A stretch of 38,509 nucleotides of DNA, taken from positions 1 through 38,509 of the forward strand of contig JALSKA010000246.1 of the NCBI GenBank assembly GCA_026989095.1, given 5' to 3'. This document shows positions 7,128 to 14,188 of the stretch, piece by piece. A program made the position numbers and the translations under genes. The stretch comes from Ardenticatenaceae bacterium (lineage in GTDB: Bacteria > Chloroflexota > Anaerolineae > Ardenticatenales > Ardenticatenaceae). The notes beneath the pieces were generated by a model, which made no database searches, was not told the DNA's origin, and saw nothing but the letters and a program-made list of their open reading frames with translations. How positions within the stretch are numbered: the first letter of the stretch is position 1; each line of letters opens with the position of its first letter.

Positions 7128-10100
7128 TCAGGGTGATGGCGCGTGAGGAAGGCCCAGCTCGGCTTTCAGGCGCTCGATGCGCTTCGCCTCGCCGCGGGCC
7201 CCCAACTTCTGCACGATCTCCTCGGCTTGCGCCAAGAAGTGCGCGGCCTCCTCCACACGGCCGGACTTGGCCTCCACGCGCGCCAGCTCGACCAGCAGGC
7301 GGGCTTGTCTGTAGGCTTCAGTTTCAATCTCGTAGCTTTTTTGAAGCTCAATACGGGCCAATTCGTAATCACCTTGGGCTTCGGCCAATAGACCGTAGAA
7401 ACGGTGAAGAAAGAAGGTGGTTGTGGGATCCAACTCTTGTACTTGATCTTCATAACTACGAAGCTGTTCAGCTAATGTCATAGCATCTTTCATTTTGTCG
7501 AGATAAATGGCTGTCTCACCTTTTAATGAAATAACTAACAGAAGCATGTTGAGAGGTATATTGGTTTGGTTTTCTAATTCTAGAATGTAATTCAATTCTC
7601 TCTCCGCACTATCCCATGCTTCCTGAGACATATAAAGTTGAGCCAGAGTCTGTCTTACCCACGTTTGTAGAAATCTACTGTCCAGCCGATCGGCTAAACT
7701 TTTGGCCTTTGTCAGCACTACATTTGCCTCTGTAAATCTTCCTAACAAAGTATATAACATGCCGGTATTTATGAATGCCAAAGCCAATCCTTCGTAATCG
7801 CCGATACGCTCTTGGATTTGAGCTGCTTGTTGATAAAAATCAAGGGCATCCTGCCAAAGCCCTTGCACGCTATGGAGGACGGCCAAATTCATGTTGGTAC
7901 GTGCAATTTCATCGAGGTGTCCCAATGCCTCTCGAATGGCTAGAGCCTCTCGGGTGTAGCGCACGGCTGTCTTGAGGTCACGCCGTTGGAAGGCGAGCCC
8001 TCCCAAGCGGTTCAACACGGCGGCGGTGACCGCCTGACTGCTCCGCCGGGCCAGCTCTAGGGCCTTGGTAAGCCACTGGTGGGCCCCGTCGAACTGCCCC
8101 ATGCGGAAGAGCACCCAGCCGATGTCGCTGCAGGTGGCCGCCAGCTCGGCCTCCTCGTCGCCCGCGCCTTCGGCTTGGAGCAACCCGTGGGCGGTCCGCA
8201 GGGCCTCCAGCGCCTCGGCGTAGAGCCCCTGGCGCTCGAAGGTGGTGCCGATGCGCCGCCAGAGGGAGGCCTGGAGCAGGCGGCGGGCCCCGTCGCCTTG
8301 GGTCACGGCCTCGAGGGCCCGGCGGTAGGCTGCCCGCGCCTCCTCGTAGCGCCCCACGAAGCTCAACACGTCCCCCAAGCCCGACTCGATGGCCACCAGT
8401 TGGCTGAGACTTGTTTCGCCCTGTGCGGTCAAGGCCCGGGCGCGCTCGAAGAAGGCAATGGCCTCGTGGTTGGCGTAGCGGGCGGCGGCCTTCTGGCCGG
8501 CCCGGATCAGGTAGGGGAGGGCTCGCTCCGGCTCCGCGCTCCTGGCGTAGTGGTGGGCGAGCATTTCCACGTAGTCGTCGCTGTCGGGCGGCGAGAGGCG
8601 TTCCAGCGCTTGGGCCACCCGCAGGTGAAGGGCTTGCCGGTCGGCCACCAGCAGGCTGTTGTAGATCACGCCGTGGGCGATGCGGTGTTGGAAGGTGTAC
8701 TCCAGCGTGGGCGCGTCGGGCAGGCGCTGGAGGAAGCGGGCCTCCACGAGCGCTTCCACCCGGGCCATGAGGGGTTCCGCGCCGGCGGCGGACTCCAAAC
8801 ACTCCTCAAGGAGCCGGAAGGGCACGCGCCGGCCGATGACGGCCGCCACGCCGAGCACCTCGCGCAGGGAGGGCGCCAGCCGGGCGTAGCGGGCCATGAC
8901 GATTTCCTCGACCGTGCGGGGCACGGCGATCTCTTCCAGGGCCTGTTCCGTGGTGGCCCGCCAGCGGCCCTCCTCGCGCACGAGCACACTGGCCTCGATG
9001 AGGGCCCGCAGGAGCTCTTCCAAGTAGAGGGGAATGCCCTCGGAGTAGGCCACGATGTCCTGTCGCAGGCGGGCGGGGAGCTCCGGCCGGTCGAGGAGCA
9101 AGTCGAGCAGGCGGTCCACCTCCTCGGGCGAGAGGGGGGCCAGCTCCACGATGCGGTGGGCCCCCGGGGCGGCCCGCGCCAGCAAGGCGTGCCAGTCCCG
9201 CTCCCCGCTGCGGGCACTGCGGCTGCTGCAACAGAAGAGCACGGGCTCCTCTTCCAGGCCGACGATGAGGTGTTCCACCAGCTCGGCCGAGAGGTCGTCG
9301 GCCCAGTGGAGGTCCTCCAACACCAACACGAGGGGGCGCGAGCGGGCCTCGGCCCGCAGGAACTCGGCCACGGCCCCGAAGACGCGCTGTTTGAGCTGCT
9401 GGGGCGAGAGGTGTTCCAGGGACGTGGGCAGGGCCACATCGGTGGCCAGCAGGTGGAGGATGAAGGGCACCAGCTCCTCCCACCGGTCGGGCACGAGCCG
9501 GCGCAGGCGCGTCTCCACTTGTCGCCGCGTGGTGGCCGGATCCTGCCCGAAGGGCACGCCGAAGTAGCGCTTCAGCAGATCGCCGAAGAGCCCGTAGGGC
9601 ACGTTGTGGGTGTGTTCGTAGCACCCGGTGCTGATGGTGGTGTGCTCGAAGGGGAGCCGTTCGAGGTATTCAGCCAGGAGGCGGGACTTGCCGATGCCGG
9701 CCTCGCCCACCACCAGGACGACGCCACGGCGCCCGTCGCCCAAGCACTGGGTCACGCCCTCGAGGGCCTTCAGCTCCTCTTCCCGTCCCACGAGGGGGGC
9801 CACTAACCCCGGTATGCTCAGCCCCCGGGCGCGGCCGGGGGTTACGCGCGCGCGGCGCACCTCATAGGCCCGCACGGGCACCGGATATCCCTTCAAGTGG
9901 AGCTCGGGGAGCTCCCGGTACTCGATGTAGGCGCGGGTGGCCTCTTGGACCGCCTCGCTCACCAGGATGTGGCCCGGCTGGGCGGCGTGTTCCAGGCGGG
10001 CCGCCAAGTTCACCGTGTCCCCGATAACCGTGTAGGCGCGGAAGTGGTCGGTGCCCACCTCGCCGGCAACCACCTCGCCGGCGTTGATGCCGATGCGCAG

Positions 10101-10700
10101 GCGGATTTCTGTGCCGTACTTGGCCCGTGCCTCCTCGTTGAAGGCGCGGATGGCCTCCTGCATGGCCATGGCCGCCCAGACGGCGTGGAGGGCGTGCTGT
10201 TCCAAGGGTGTGGGGGCGCCGAAGATGGCCATCAGCCCGTCCCCCGTGAACTTGTCCACTGTGCCGCCGAAGCGGTCCACCTGGGAGGCCAGGTGGCGCA
10301 GGGCCTGGTCCACCAGCACGTAGATCTCCTCGGGGTCCATGCGGGTGGAGAGGGCCGTGAAGCCGCTGATGTCGGCGAAGAGCACGCTCACCTTCCGGCG
10401 TTCCCGCCGGCCCCCTGTGGCGTCGGCGGCGAGGGCCCGGTGATCCCGCAGGGGGTAGGCGCACGTGCTGCAGAAGTGGGAGGAGGGGAGATTGAGGGCA
10501 TGACACTGGGGACAGGCGCGCGGCAGCTCGGCGCGGCAGGCCGCACAGTGGCGGGCGCCGCTCAGGTTGGTGGTCCCACAGCGGACGCACGTCCTCCCCA
10601 AGTCGCGGCCACATTGCCCACAGAACCGGCTGGTGGCGAGGTTCTCGAATTGGCAGGCCGGGCAGCGTTGCAGCAGATAGGGTGGGTGTTCAAAGGCCAT
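7128..10700 (-). CDS. Zinc-ribbon / adenylate cyclase / AAA ATPase / TPR signalling protein
   Basis: A 1190-residue protein starting at ATG 10700. Three consecutive double-Cys zinc ribbons occupy residues 13-80 (CPAC/CGQC, CVRC/CAAC, CPQC/CSTC). A class III cyclase domain follows (about 103-280) with metal Asp D110 and D154, base-selecting K150 and T224 (the Lys/Thr pair of class IIIb adenylate cyclases), and N231/R235. A STAND/AAA_16-like ATPase has Walker A GEAGIGKS (332-339) and Walker B LVLVLEDLHWADD. The C-terminal half is TPR-like helical repeats. Such proteins are thought to tie ligand or partner binding by the TPRs to cyclase activity. Codons for about residues 905-1125 are far more AT-rich than the rest although the frame is intact. 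Downstream bases 6922-7127 hold only a small GCGGGC/GCCCGC hairpin (7081-7095). Confidence 0.9.
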   Translation of the reverse strand: MAFEHPPYLLQRCPACQFENLATSRFCGQCGRDLGRTCVRCGTTNLSGARHCAACRAELPRACPQCHALNLPSSHFCSTCAYPLRDHRALAADATGGRRERRKVSVLFADISGFTALSTRMDPEEIYVLVDQALRHLASQVDRFGGTVDKFTGDGLMAIFGAPTPLEQHALHAVWAAMAMQEAIRAFNEEARAKYGTEIRLRIGINAGEVVAGEVGTDHFRAYTVIGDTVNLAARLEHAAQPGHILVSEAVQEATRAYIEYRELPELHLKGYPVPVRAYEVRRARVTPGRARGLSIPGLVAPLVGREEELKALEGVTQCLGDGRRGVVLVVGEAGIGKSRLLAEYLERLPFEHTTISTGCYEHTHNVPYGLFGDLLKRYFGVPFGQDPATTRRQVETRLRRLVPDRWEELVPFILHLLATDVALPTSLEHLSPQQLKQRVFGAVAEFLRAEARSRPLVLVLEDLHWADDLSAELVEHLIVGLEEEPVLFCCSSRSARSGERDWHALLARAAPGAHRIVELAPLSPEEVDRLLDLLLDRPELPARLRQDIVAYSEGIPLYLEELLRALIEASVLVREEGRWRATTEQALEEIAVPRTVEEIVMARYARLAPSLREVLGVAAVIGRRVPFRLLEECLESAAGAEPLMARVEALVEARFLQRLPDAPTLEYTFQHRIAHGVIYNSLLVADRQALHLRVAQALERLSPPDSDDYVEMLAHHYARSAEPERALPYLIRAGQKAAARYANHEAIAFFERARALTAQGETSLSQLVAIESGLGDVLSFVGRYEEARAAYRRALEAVTQGDGARRLLQASLWRRIGTTFERQGLYAEALEALRTAHGLLQAEGAGDEEAELAATCSDIGWVLFRMGQFDGAHQWLTKALELARRSSQAVTAAVLNRLGGLAFQRRDLKTAVRYTREALAIREALGHLDEIARTNMNLAVLHSVQGLWQDALDFYQQAAQIQERIGDYEGLALAFINTGMLYTLLGRFTEANVVLTKAKSLADRLDSRFLQTWVRQTLAQLYMSQEAWDSAERELNYILELENQTNIPLNMLLLVISLKGETAIYLDKMKDAMTLAEQLRSYEDQVQELDPTTTFFLHRFYGLLAEAQGDYELARIELQKSYEIETEAYRQARLLVELARVEAKSGRVEEAAHFLAQAEEIVQKLGARGEAKRIERLKAELGLPHAPSP
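7320..7980 (-). other. AT-rich island inside the cyclase/TPR gene
   Basis: The segment is visibly AT-rich (TTT, AAT, TTA and ATA codons are common), while flanking parts of the same gene are strongly GC-rich. The reading frame continues without break and still encodes TPR-like helices. This suggests replacement of part of the repeat region by foreign DNA, or an unusual local constraint. Confidence 0.75.
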
Positions 10701-11048: not shown

Positions 11049-12917
11049 TCAGGGCAGGATGCCCACGGTGACCGTCACGCTCTCCAGGGGGCCGCCAGCC
11101 CAGACCCATGTGCTGCCACTCCATGCCCACTTGCCAGTGCCGGCCCAGACCCATGTGTCACCAGCCCAGACCCATGTGCCACCAGCCCACACCCATGTGC
11201 TGCCAGCCCAGACCCATGTGCCACCAGCCCACACCCATGTGTCACCAGCCCACACCCACTTGCCACCAGCCCAGACCCATGTGTCACCAGCCCACACCCA
11301 TGTACTTCCATCCCACACGAAGTAATTCTCCGGCAGGGGCGGGGCGTCGCTGATGTAGAAGAGGCCGGCGTCCTGGTCGTACTCGGTGTAGCCCTCGTAG
11401 TGGGTGCCGGAGGCGGTCACGTCCAGGTCGGCGTTGATGTCCAGGCCGTTGTTGGCCGAGCGGCGTTCCACGTCGGCGAAGACGGCGTCCCACGCTTGGA
11501 CTTTGCCGGCGCCCTGCTCCCAGATGGTGTAGATGGCGCGGTTGCCCGTCTCATCGACGGCCAGGGCAGCCGTGTCCTGGAGGCGGGCCTTCACCTCGTC
11601 GTTGGTCAGGTCGGGGTTCTGCTCCAACATGAGGGCCACCAGGCCGGAGACCTGGGCGGCGGCCATCGAGGTGCCGCTGAGCTGGAAGTACCCGATCTTC
11701 TCGCGGCCCCAGCGGACCACGGGCACGTCGTCATCGTCGTCGTCATCGTGGCCCTCACCATCATCATCGTCGCCGTCGTCATCGTTGCCCAAGAAGCGCT
11801 GGGCCAACGCCGACTTCATGGGCATGGGGCCGGTGATCTTCCAGCCGGGGGCCAGCACGTCGGGCTTCACGAAGCGGGACTCCGTCGGGCCACGGGCGGA
11901 GAAGTCGGCCAACTCGTCGGCGCCCGAGTCGGTGAAGCGCGCTTCCTTGTACGCGCCCACGGTGATCACGTAGGGCACGTTGCCGGGCACGCCCACGCTG
12001 GCCGGCGTGGGCCCGTCGTTGCCGGCGGCCACGACGACCACCAGCCCGGCCTGCCACGCGCGCATCACCGCCTGGCCCAAGGGGTCAACCCAGTAGGGCA
12101 CTTCGACGGGCGCGTAGAGGGAGAGGTTGAGCACGTCGATGCCGTAGACATCGCGGATGCTCACGATCCAATCGATGGCCGCGATCACGTCCGCGTAGGT
12201 GCCGCTCCCGTCCGCGCCGAGGGCACGGGCCACCACCAAGTTCACGCCCGGCGCCACGCCGGCGTAGACCGTGCCACCATCCTCCTCTTCAGCCGGGGTG
12301 CTGTCGGCGATGATGCCGAGCACGTGCGTGCCGTGGCCGAAGGGGTCCTGGCTCTTCTTGGCGTTGGGGTCGATGAAGTCCTTGTAGAGCACGAACCGGC
12401 CCGTGCGGCGGTCCTTGTAGAAGAGGCTGCCGTCCTGGGGCGCGCCGGCAGGCCGCCCGCCCCGGCCGCGCTTGAGCTTGGGGGTAAAGGGCATGCCCGT
12501 GTCCACCAAGGCCACGGTCACCCCACGGCCGGTGATGCCTTGCTCGTGGATTTCGTTCACCCCGGCAGCGGCAGACGCATAGTGGCCTTCGGGCAGCGTG
12601 CGCCGCGCGCGGCGGTCGGGCTGGGAGGTCACCTGCACCTTGCGGTTGGGCCACACGGCGCGTACAGCCGGATCGCGGCGGAGGCGCGTCACCGTGTCGG
12701 CGGTCACGCGAGCGGCCACGCTGTCGATGATGGAGAGAGGGCGGAGAACAGTGCCGCCGTAGGCAGCAACCAATTGGGCGGCCGCCTCGCTGCTCTGCGC
12801 CTGCACGATGACCTCGACGGGGGATGTGGCGACTGGCGAGGAGAAAGTAATGCCCAGGAGAACGGCGAGGAAGAGAACCAGGGTTAGCCACCGAAAAGCA
12901 CGTCTGTGATGGGACAT
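11049..12917 (-). CDS. Secreted subtilisin-like (S8) serine peptidase with C-terminal WVWAG repeats
   Basis: A 622-residue protein starting at ATG 12917 with GGAGG upstream. A basic N-terminus and hydrophobic stretch (10-30) form a signal peptide; an inhibitor-like prodomain (about 35-100) precedes the catalytic domain. Catalytic residues are D139 (ALVDTGMP), H195 (GHGTHVLG), oxyanion N300 (AAGNDGP) and S417 (SGTSMAAA). An Asp-rich insertion (378-397) just before the serine motif may bind calcium. After the catalytic domain the tail ends in ten short repeats, mostly (D/G/S)TWVWAG. There is no obvious transmembrane anchor or sorting signal, so the repeats may mediate cell-surface or substrate attachment. 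Upstream are a c-di-GMP riboswitch and terminator, so expression is probably linked to the motile/sessile switch. Function beyond peptidase is inferred. Confidence 0.94.
   Translation of the reverse strand: MSHHRRAFRWLTLVLFLAVLLGITFSSPVATSPVEVIVQAQSSEAAAQLVAAYGGTVLRPLSIIDSVAARVTADTVTRLRRDPAVRAVWPNRKVQVTSQPDRRARRTLPEGHYASAAAGVNEIHEQGITGRGVTVALVDTGMPFTPKLKRGRGGRPAGAPQDGSLFYKDRRTGRFVLYKDFIDPNAKKSQDPFGHGTHVLGIIADSTPAEEEDGGTVYAGVAPGVNLVVARALGADGSGTYADVIAAIDWIVSIRDVYGIDVLNLSLYAPVEVPYWVDPLGQAVMRAWQAGLVVVVAAGNDGPTPASVGVPGNVPYVITVGAYKEARFTDSGADELADFSARGPTESRFVKPDVLAPGWKITGPMPMKSALAQRFLGNDDDGDDDDGEGHDDDDDDDVPVVRWGREKIGYFQLSGTSMAAAQVSGLVALMLEQNPDLTNDEVKARLQDTAALAVDETGNRAIYTIWEQGAGKVQAWDAVFADVERRSANNGLDINADLDVTASGTHYEGYTEYDQDAGLFYISDAPPLPENYFVWDGSTWVWAGDTWVWAGGKWVWAGDTWVWAGGTWVWAGSTWVWAGGTWVWAGDTWVWAGTGKWAWSGSTWVWAGGPLESVTVTVGILP
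11094..11306 (-). repeat. Ten tandem 21-bp units encoding WVWAG heptapeptides
   Basis: Nine 21-bp units and one 24-bp unit (11115-11138) encode heptads such as DTWVWAG, GTWVWAG, STWVWAG, GKWVWAG and the variant TGKWAWSG. The DNA units are very similar, mainly alternating CAGACCCATGT and CACACCCATGT on the plus strand, which suggests recent expansion by slippage or unequal crossing over. The array ends about 14 residues before the C-terminus. Confidence 0.95.
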
Positions 12918-12967
12918 TGCTCCACCCTCCTCTGTGTTGAACGGTTGATCGTCGGCGAGGGTGACAC

Positions 12968-12981
12968 TTTCAACGTTGAAA
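12968..12981. promoter_or_regulatory. 14-bp palindrome upstream of the S8 peptidase
   Basis: TTTCAACGTTGAAA is a perfect palindrome about 51 nt upstream of the peptidase start, after the riboswitch terminator. It could be an operator or a small leader hairpin. No regulator can be assigned. Confidence 0.3.
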
Positions 12982-13084
12982 AGGCCACCCCGATACCCCT
13001 GTTATGATGGTTTTTGTGACGTGCATTGATACCTTGGTGTGACAGCAGTCCGGTGAAGTGTCAGGTGAGGGGATACCGGTCCAC

Positions 13085-13117
13085 AAAAAAACTGTGCCCG
13101 GCGCGCCGGGCACAGTT
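13085..13117 (-). terminator. Intrinsic terminator, probable expression platform of the riboswitch
   Basis: A perfect 28-nt palindrome (13-nt arms at 13090-13102 and 13105-13117) is followed on the minus strand by seven T (13091-13085). It lies 40 nt after the riboswitch aptamer and before the S8 peptidase. Its first arm contains GCCCGGC, complementary to GCCGGGC in the 3' part of the aptamer (13177-13171). Aptamer folding and an antiterminator would therefore exclude each other, predicting that ligand binding lets the terminator form. Confidence 0.85.
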
Positions 13118-13154
13118 CACGATCCGAAGCCTGTCTGCGTGCAAACAACAAACA

Positions 13155-13262
13155 GCGGATCCCTTCGGCAGCCCGGCCGCCCTAGCGTGTGTGACACACG
13201 CCGTAGGCCCTCGGCTTTGCGCACCTGCCTTTCGACAGGATTGCCCTTTCGGAAGATCCGTC
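13155..13262 (-). ncRNA. c-di-GMP-I (GEMM) riboswitch
   Basis: On the minus strand the aptamer shows every hallmark of the class. P1 is formed by GGATC (13259-13255) with GATCC, plus a UUC/GAA extension. Then comes AGGGCAAUCC, a hairpin CCUGUC-GAAA-GGCAGG with the GNRA tetraloop, and the GCGCAAAGCC junction. GGCCUA, a perfect GCGUGUG-UCA-CACACGC hairpin and UAGGGC make the tetraloop-receptor arm, followed by GCCGGGCUGCC. The base equivalent to position 20 of the Vibrio Vc2 aptamer is G, favouring c-di-GMP over cyclic GMP-AMP. It sits about 240 nt upstream of the S8 peptidase start with a terminator between, so it should control transcription of that gene. Confidence 0.92.
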
Positions 13263-13283
13263 TTTCAAGATATATGGACTTCA

Positions 13284-13312
13284 ATTGTAGGGTAACACAC
13301 CCCGGGGAAAAA
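13284..13312 (-). promoter_or_regulatory. Possible promoter of the riboswitch transcript
   Basis: TACAAT (13289-13284) on the minus strand is a good -10, about 20 nt before the aptamer. The -35 at 17-nt spacing (TTTTTC, 13312-13307) is poor. Bases 13290-13366, after znuB, contain no gene. Confidence 0.35.
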
Positions 13313-13366
13313 GTGCATAGTACGTTGGGGCTAAGGGGATGGGGCCAAAGTACTGTGGCACCCCTT

Positions 13367-14188
13367 TCACGCCGCGCGGGCGCGCAGCCCTCGCCAGGCC
13401 AAGGCCAGGCCAAAGCCCGCGGCCTGGACGAGCACGATGGTGGCCCCCGAGGCGGCGTCGGCGTAGAAGCTGACCAACATCCCCAGCGCCCCGGTGCCGG
13501 CGCCGATCAGGGCCGAGAGGAGCATCAGGCGGTCGAAGGCGTCGGTGAGCAGTCTGGCCGTGATGGCCGGAATGACCAGGGCGGCCGCGATGAGGGTCAC
13601 GCCGAGAATCTGGAGGGAGGCGATCAGCGTGGCCGCCAGCAGGAGGGCGAAGAGGGTCTCCACCCACGTCGTGCGCACCCCGTAGACGTGCGCGGTTTCG
13701 GCGTCGAAGGTGGTGAAGAGCAGGTGTTTGTAGAAGGCCAGGATCATCAGCGTCACCAACACGGTCACCCCGGCGACCACCACCACGTCTTGGGGGGAAA
13801 CCCCCAGCACGTTGCCGAAGAGGGCGGCGTCGAAGGAACGGGTGAAACGGCGGTATCGACTAATGATGGCCACCCCCACGGCGAAGCTGGCCGTAGTGAC
13901 GACGCCAATCACCGCGTCGGCCTTGATGGTCGTTCGGCGTGCCATCTCGTTGATGAGCACCGCGGCCAGAAAGCCCCACAGGCCGGCGCCCACGTAGAAG
14001 TTCCACTGCATCATGAAGGCCACGACGGCACCGCCGAAGATGGCGTGGGCCAGGCCGTGGCCGATGTAGCTCATGCCGCGCAGCACGATGAAGACGCCGA
14101 GCAGCCCGCAGAGCCCGCCGGCCAAGGTGGCCGCCAGGAACCCGTTGCGGAAGAACTCGAAGGCGAAGGGACGCCACAGTTCTGTCAT
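13367..14188 (-). CDS. znuB: Zinc ABC transporter permease (ZnuB-like)
   Basis: A 273-residue integral membrane protein of the ABC-3 metal permease family with about eight hydrophobic helices. Family features include the early RNGFLAATLAGGLCGLLGVF helix, the GMSYIGHGLAHAIFGG segment and IGVVTTASFAVGV. It forms the channel through which metal delivered by ZnuA is pumped by ZnuC. Its ATG overlaps the ZnuC stop (ATGA), so it is translationally coupled. It is the last gene of the zinc operon. No separate strong terminator is visible between it and the riboswitch promoter, so some read-through into the riboswitch region is possible. Confidence 0.92.
   Translation of the reverse strand: MTELWRPFAFEFFRNGFLAATLAGGLCGLLGVFIVLRGMSYIGHGLAHAIFGGAVVAFMMQWNFYVGAGLWGFLAAVLINEMARRTTIKADAVIGVVTTASFAVGVAIISRYRRFTRSFDAALFGNVLGVSPQDVVVVAGVTVLVTLMILAFYKHLLFTTFDAETAHVYGVRTTWVETLFALLLAATLIASLQILGVTLIAAALVIPAITARLLTDAFDRLMLLSALIGAGTGALGMLVSFYADAASGATIVLVQAAGFGLALAWRGLRARAA

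Follow-up and report, generated by a model that had tools for sequence, protein, structure and literature searches.

What does a c-di-GMP-I riboswitch do in front of the gene for a secreted protease, and does its ligand turn that gene on or off? The question is raised by a leader on the minus strand of the stretch of DNA analysed here (38,509 nucleotides, hereafter the window). The riboswitch itself is of an already known type; the interesting part is its recurrent pairing with subtilases. Our analysis makes it quite probable that the riboswitch of the window acts by premature termination of transcription to control a secreted S8 protease, whose gene the ligand would switch off. The parts of the locus are the following.

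11049 to 12917, minus strand: S8 subtilase of 622 aa, predicted to be secreted (PF00082, E 1.5e-44; orthologue alignment)
11091 to 11318, minus strand: C-terminal Trp-rich repeats of 7 aa, WVWAGDT/WVWAGGK (tandem repeat finder, period 21 bp, 10.7 copies; translation)
12926 to 12930, minus strand: Shine-Dalgarno-like GGAGG upstream of the ATG at 12917 (sequence)
13085 to 13118, minus strand: intrinsic terminator with a 13-pair stem, a GCGC loop and seven T at 13091 to 13085 (sequence; -22 to -24 kcal/mol)
13164 to 13255, minus strand: c-di-GMP-I (GEMM-I) aptamer (RF01051, 68.7 bits, E 1.4e-11)

The first-pass annotation, made from the sequence alone, had described a complete c-di-GMP-I aptamer carrying the G that selects c-di-GMP, and had proposed a covariance-model search. 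That search (cmscan) bears out both statements. The score is about twice the gathering cut-off of 35 bits, the model is covered end to end (positions 1-87), and no other Rfam family is matched in the window. In the alignment to RF01051 the aptamer, read from 13255 to 13164, contains both the GAAA tetraloop (GNRA) and the GCGCAAAGCC junction, and the base at model position 11 is G; we take this position to be equivalent to G20 of Vc2, where G selects c-di-GMP. Among 33 aptamer copies aligned across the class, changes on both sides occur at 16 of the 21 pairs. Given the match and the selecting G, the ligand of this RNA would be c-di-GMP.

Could the ligand instead be 3',3'-cGAMP, as in the GEMM-Ib type? 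We regard this as improbable, since the selecting position, in the sense that general knowledge of Vc2 G20 gives it, carries G and not A. Moreover, the host genome has six matches to GGDEF cyclases, and the GGEEF or GGDEF motif is intact in five of them, which would likewise speak for c-di-GMP. Five HD-GYP-type domains are also present; neither EAL nor PilZ gave a match in that genome. In favour of cGAMP one can cite the identical aptamer scaffold and the fact that some GEMM-I members do sense cGAMP (PMC6456294, PMC9262584).

The terminator is present as annotated: the hairpin from 13118 to 13089 reads GAACTGTGCCCGGC-GCGC-GCCGGGCACAGTTT, starts 46 nt past the aptamer and shares no base with it. 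The next gene on the minus strand is the protease, which had been annotated as a secreted, repeat-bearing S8 peptidase, a description that we can uphold: it matches Peptidase_S8, its DTG/DSG, GHGTH and SGTSMA catalytic motifs are kept in five orthologues, its translated N-terminus resembles a signal peptide and hence predicts export, and a tandem array of 21-bp units encodes the 7-aa repeats. Short Trp-containing or aromatic C-terminal repeats also occur across the S8 clade (the window, L003, L004, L005, L060, L064, L068, L166, L204, L209 and L298). The unit is fairly uniform inside one protein and differs among orthologues (WVWAGDT, WTWAGGK, EWAFLG, DYALLG, GSVNW, STWAGSY), a pattern that suggests concerted evolution of the repeat units. 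Elsewhere in the window, at 7128-10700 on the minus strand, lies a gene whose 1190-aa product combines double zinc ribbon, adenylate/guanylate cyclase, AAA and TPR domains; similar proteins begin 630-740 nt past some c-di-GMP-I aptamers (L040, L053, L150, L206, L219), a distance at which another gene in between could have escaped notice.

Does the aptamer belong to the protease at all? It lies about 110 nt past the stop codon of a metal ABC permease gene, and the region 12850-13500 yielded no match to the sigma-70 promoter consensus, as one would expect if the aptamer were part of the 3' region of the metal ABC operon; the lack of such a promoter also counts against our main reading. We hold this to be very improbable, because the aptamer and the protease stay together while the gene upstream of them varies. 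The comparison rests on relatives within the Ardenticatenaceae (Chloroflexota). The aptamer-protease unit is kept in four genomes, that of the window and three others, G004 (WFWG01000145.1), G001 and G002 (WFOS01000073.1, Ardenticatena sp.), the last three having one aptamer each, directly 5' of an orthologue of the protease (identities of 75, 52 and 55 percent, respectively). The window and G004 share the metal ABC permease as upstream gene; in G001 and, by sequence, G002 that place is taken by a formyltransferase-like gene. It is thus the protease to which the switch belongs. In G003 an orthologue occurs with no aptamer upstream of it, and in G005 neither was seen. The host genome itself has two aptamer copies, the second of which (G000:C174:1056-964, minus strand; L006; L001) precedes a secreted, Asp/His-rich protein with Thr-Pro repeats.

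In which direction would the switch act? Four further elements enter the argument.

13253 to 13260, minus strand: 5' strand of the extended P1 helix, CGGATCTT, whose partner is 13163 to 13156 when the aptamer is enforced (sequence)
13156 to 13163, minus strand: 3' strand of extended P1, GGGATCCG, with CGGATC at 13126 to 13121 as alternative partner (folding with and without the enforced aptamer)
13171 to 13177, minus strand: GCCGGGC in the aptamer 3' strand, a possible partner of the terminator 5' arm (minimum-free-energy folds of 177-190 nt transcripts)
13105 to 13111, minus strand: GCCCGGC, part of the 5' arm of the terminator and second strand of the proposed antiterminator (sequence; folding)

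When the leader is cut at 177-190 nt and folded freely (ViennaRNA), GCCGGGC pairs with GCCCGGC to form an antiterminator around a second hairpin, and at 177 nt this fold lies 10 kcal/mol below the one in which the aptamer is enforced. With the aptamer enforced, the terminator forms, and the closing of CGGATCTT on GGGATCCG competes with the pairing of GGGATCCG to the downstream CGGATC. At full length the terminator is present whether or not the aptamer is held, so that any switching must be co-transcriptional.

These folds are consistent with the following mechanism. Bound c-di-GMP would keep the 3' strand of the aptamer (GGCCGGGCUGCC) and the extended P1 closed, the 13-bp terminator downstream would form, and the protease would remain unmade. 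Without ligand, the aptamer 3' strand would pair with the terminator 5' arm as that arm is transcribed, enclosing the second hairpin, which would be built with the freed 3' strand of P1; with the antiterminator in place, polymerase would read through into the protease gene.

The ligand-OFF direction had been predicted by the first-pass annotation from the seven-nucleotide complementarity. The pairing does exist, but taken alone it is non-significant: the GC-rich terminator arm does no better than shuffled arms (p 0.38 with dinucleotide and 0.52 with mononucleotide shuffling; p 0.10 for the whole leader), and other hairpins of terminator type in these genomes equal that of the window in their pairing to the aptamer strand (median -17.5 kcal/mol, as against -16.3 in the window). 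We have therefore set the complementarity aside as proof of OFF switching. Class-wide, the complementarity of arm and aptamer 3' strand is marginal (Fisher p 0.064, n=87). Better support comes from related leaders. In the second genomic copy the aptamer 3' strand has a perfect 11-bp complement in a stretch that overlaps the 5' arm of its terminator (p 0.014 for the arm, 0.042 for the leader). The antiterminator of the sister genome G004 is intermediate by the same measure (p 0.054 and 0.29), and its minimum-free-energy fold contains no terminator pairs when free, the antiterminator being formed, and eight with the aptamer enforced; for the subtilase switch L166, also from the class, the corresponding numbers are 0 and 10. 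Taken with the separate terminator and the truncated folds of the window, these cases make the OFF direction likely, short of proof.

The weakness of the window's own pairing gives some room to a plainer arrangement, in which the aptamer binds c-di-GMP, the terminator forms in both states as a mere attenuator, and the protease is controlled elsewhere, at the promoter or in translation. Such an arrangement would accommodate the stable terminator (-22 to -24 kcal/mol), which folds at full length be the aptamer held or free, the non-significant antiterminator complementarity, and the leaders of G001 and G002, in which no recognisable terminator was found. We nevertheless consider it unlikely, since the truncated transcripts favour the antiterminator at the decision point, the OFF logic is clearer in G004 and in the second genomic copy, and the aptamer has stayed with the protease across two genera.

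How widespread is the pairing of this riboswitch with subtilases? We found c-di-GMP-I aptamers in 58 of 298 genomes of the class, taken from the named relatives to be Anaerolineae, and surveyed the next gene for 133 aptamers, namely the best 150 matches listed less tandem partners and a few others, for instance one situated at the end of its contig. As next gene we counted the longest open frame whose start lies no more than 700 nt away (900 nt in the first 33 loci); with the proviso that a few such assignments may be wrong, it encodes an S8 subtilase in 24 of the 133 cases (by Pfam, 5, 5 new and 14). At L057, a 25th case, the S8 domain lies outside the stretch read. The background, 288 S8 matches in 175.7 Mb from 41 genomes, amounts to about 0.18 percent of genes if 0.9 genes per kb are assumed, so that about 0.24 subtilases would be expected by chance against the 24 observed. 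The corresponding binomial p of about 1e-40 is overstated because related genomes are not independent; the safer figure is that the 24 switches are spread over 13 of about 20 family-level groups. Papain-type, C25, M12 and C39-like peptidases likewise recur after c-di-GMP-I aptamers. The enrichment suggests that protease control is a principal output of c-di-GMP in Anaerolineae. A literature search, with most subscription journals outside it, found no description of a subtilase association of c-di-GMP riboswitches, nor was a c-di-GMP riboswitch from the Ardenticatenaceae lineage found described.

Other targets turned up in the course of the survey. Secreted peptidases of other kinds (gingipain-like C25, C1 papains with a chagasin domain, M12) follow aptamers L148, L149, L154, L182 and L035. 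A surprising target is ruvB, about 50-160 nt past the aptamers L168, L174, L193, L194 and L205 in five genomes of family f29, and radC-like genes follow L210 and L211 in family f26.

The history of the pairing can be read from a tree of 85 S8 domains, on which the riboswitch label requires 7 changes, compared with 21 for shuffled labels; at least 5 of the 7 are forced by well-supported branches. One group is made up of eleven subtilases, drawn from eight families, all of them switch-bearing in our sample. A search with one member of this group gave 11 aptamers at 10 of 30 loci, the other relatives being without a switch, and the pairing is thus patchy. The S8 group of the window is sister to switch-less enzymes of Herpetosiphon and of G003. 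When the aptamer was sought at 80 loci of other S8 relatives (Herpetosiphon, Steroidobacter, Acidobacteria and others), matches were obtained at two Ardenticatenaceae loci only.

Not all of these subtilase switches appear to be wired alike. In six of them (L215, L221, L224, L227, L228, L237; families f29 and f53) the terminator 5' arm overlaps the last 7-11 aptamer bases, an overlap that predicts a ligand-ON response. Since this layout resembles that of pilM (PMC9262584), ON switching in front of S8 proteases is plausible in the class, and one may ask whether c-di-GMP could also block the terminator of the window, so that the protease would be made at high c-di-GMP, in the sessile state. We think this unlikely, if slightly less so than a plain attenuator: the terminator of the window is set well apart from the aptamer and free of its bases, the two fold together, and no strand freed by the ligand and able to open the terminator was seen. 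For the window we therefore retain the OFF direction. A joint reading, which we offer tentatively, our judgement leaning slightly against it, is that secreted subtilases are a main c-di-GMP-I target in Anaerolineae, that several lineages separately acquired or kept the switch, and that its sign is opposite between them, OFF in the lineage of the window and most of its relatives and ON in the PA-domain type of f29 and f53, protease export being a core output that runs through RNA where PilZ is not found.

What might such a switch be for? The protease may take part in remodelling the cell surface or the biofilm matrix. The first-pass annotation had gone further and proposed biofilm release, with the protease made as cells leave the sessile state. 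This idea matches the ZmpI precedent in C. difficile (PMC6200980), but the ON layout predicted for another subtilase lineage of the class means that it cannot serve as a general rule. Filaments and biofilms of Chloroflexota are important in hot springs and sludge, and the switch would offer a testable link in this phylum, by RNA alone, from c-di-GMP to exported proteolysis. Moreover, since two terminator layouts occur with one kind of enzyme, the wiring of a single aptamer for opposite responses can be tested cleanly.

Finally, we compare the locus with known systems. From RF01051 (GEMM-I) the aptamer does not differ at all; the host lineage is Ardenticatenaceae (Chloroflexota). The pilM switch of Geobacter, an ON switch for cGAMP, builds its terminator from aptamer strands (PMC9262584); it has the aptamer fold in common with the window and a layout like that of the f29 and f53 subtilase switches, whereas the window's terminator uses no aptamer strand and begins 46 nt past the aptamer. 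In Cd1, a transcriptional OFF switch of C. difficile, the terminator can stand beside the ligand-bound aptamer, while the antiterminator is formed by invasion of the aptamer 3' strand (PMC9262584). The window is similar in that its terminator stands apart from the aptamer; in the truncated folds its aptamer 3' strand also pairs with a terminator strand, though by a complementarity that is not beyond chance. It differs in that this pairing is a prediction and in that its antiterminator would enclose an extra hairpin. The closest functional precedent is Cdi-1-12 of C. difficile, where class I c-di-GMP switches act as OFF switches and this one controls the protease ZmpI (PMC6200980). Both loci have a c-di-GMP-I switch 5' of an exported protease, with OFF switching predicted in ours. 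However, ZmpI is a zinc metalloprotease while the window encodes an unrelated S8 subtilase with Trp repeats, so that the subtilase pairing in Anaerolineae parallels that of C. difficile with an unrelated enzyme.
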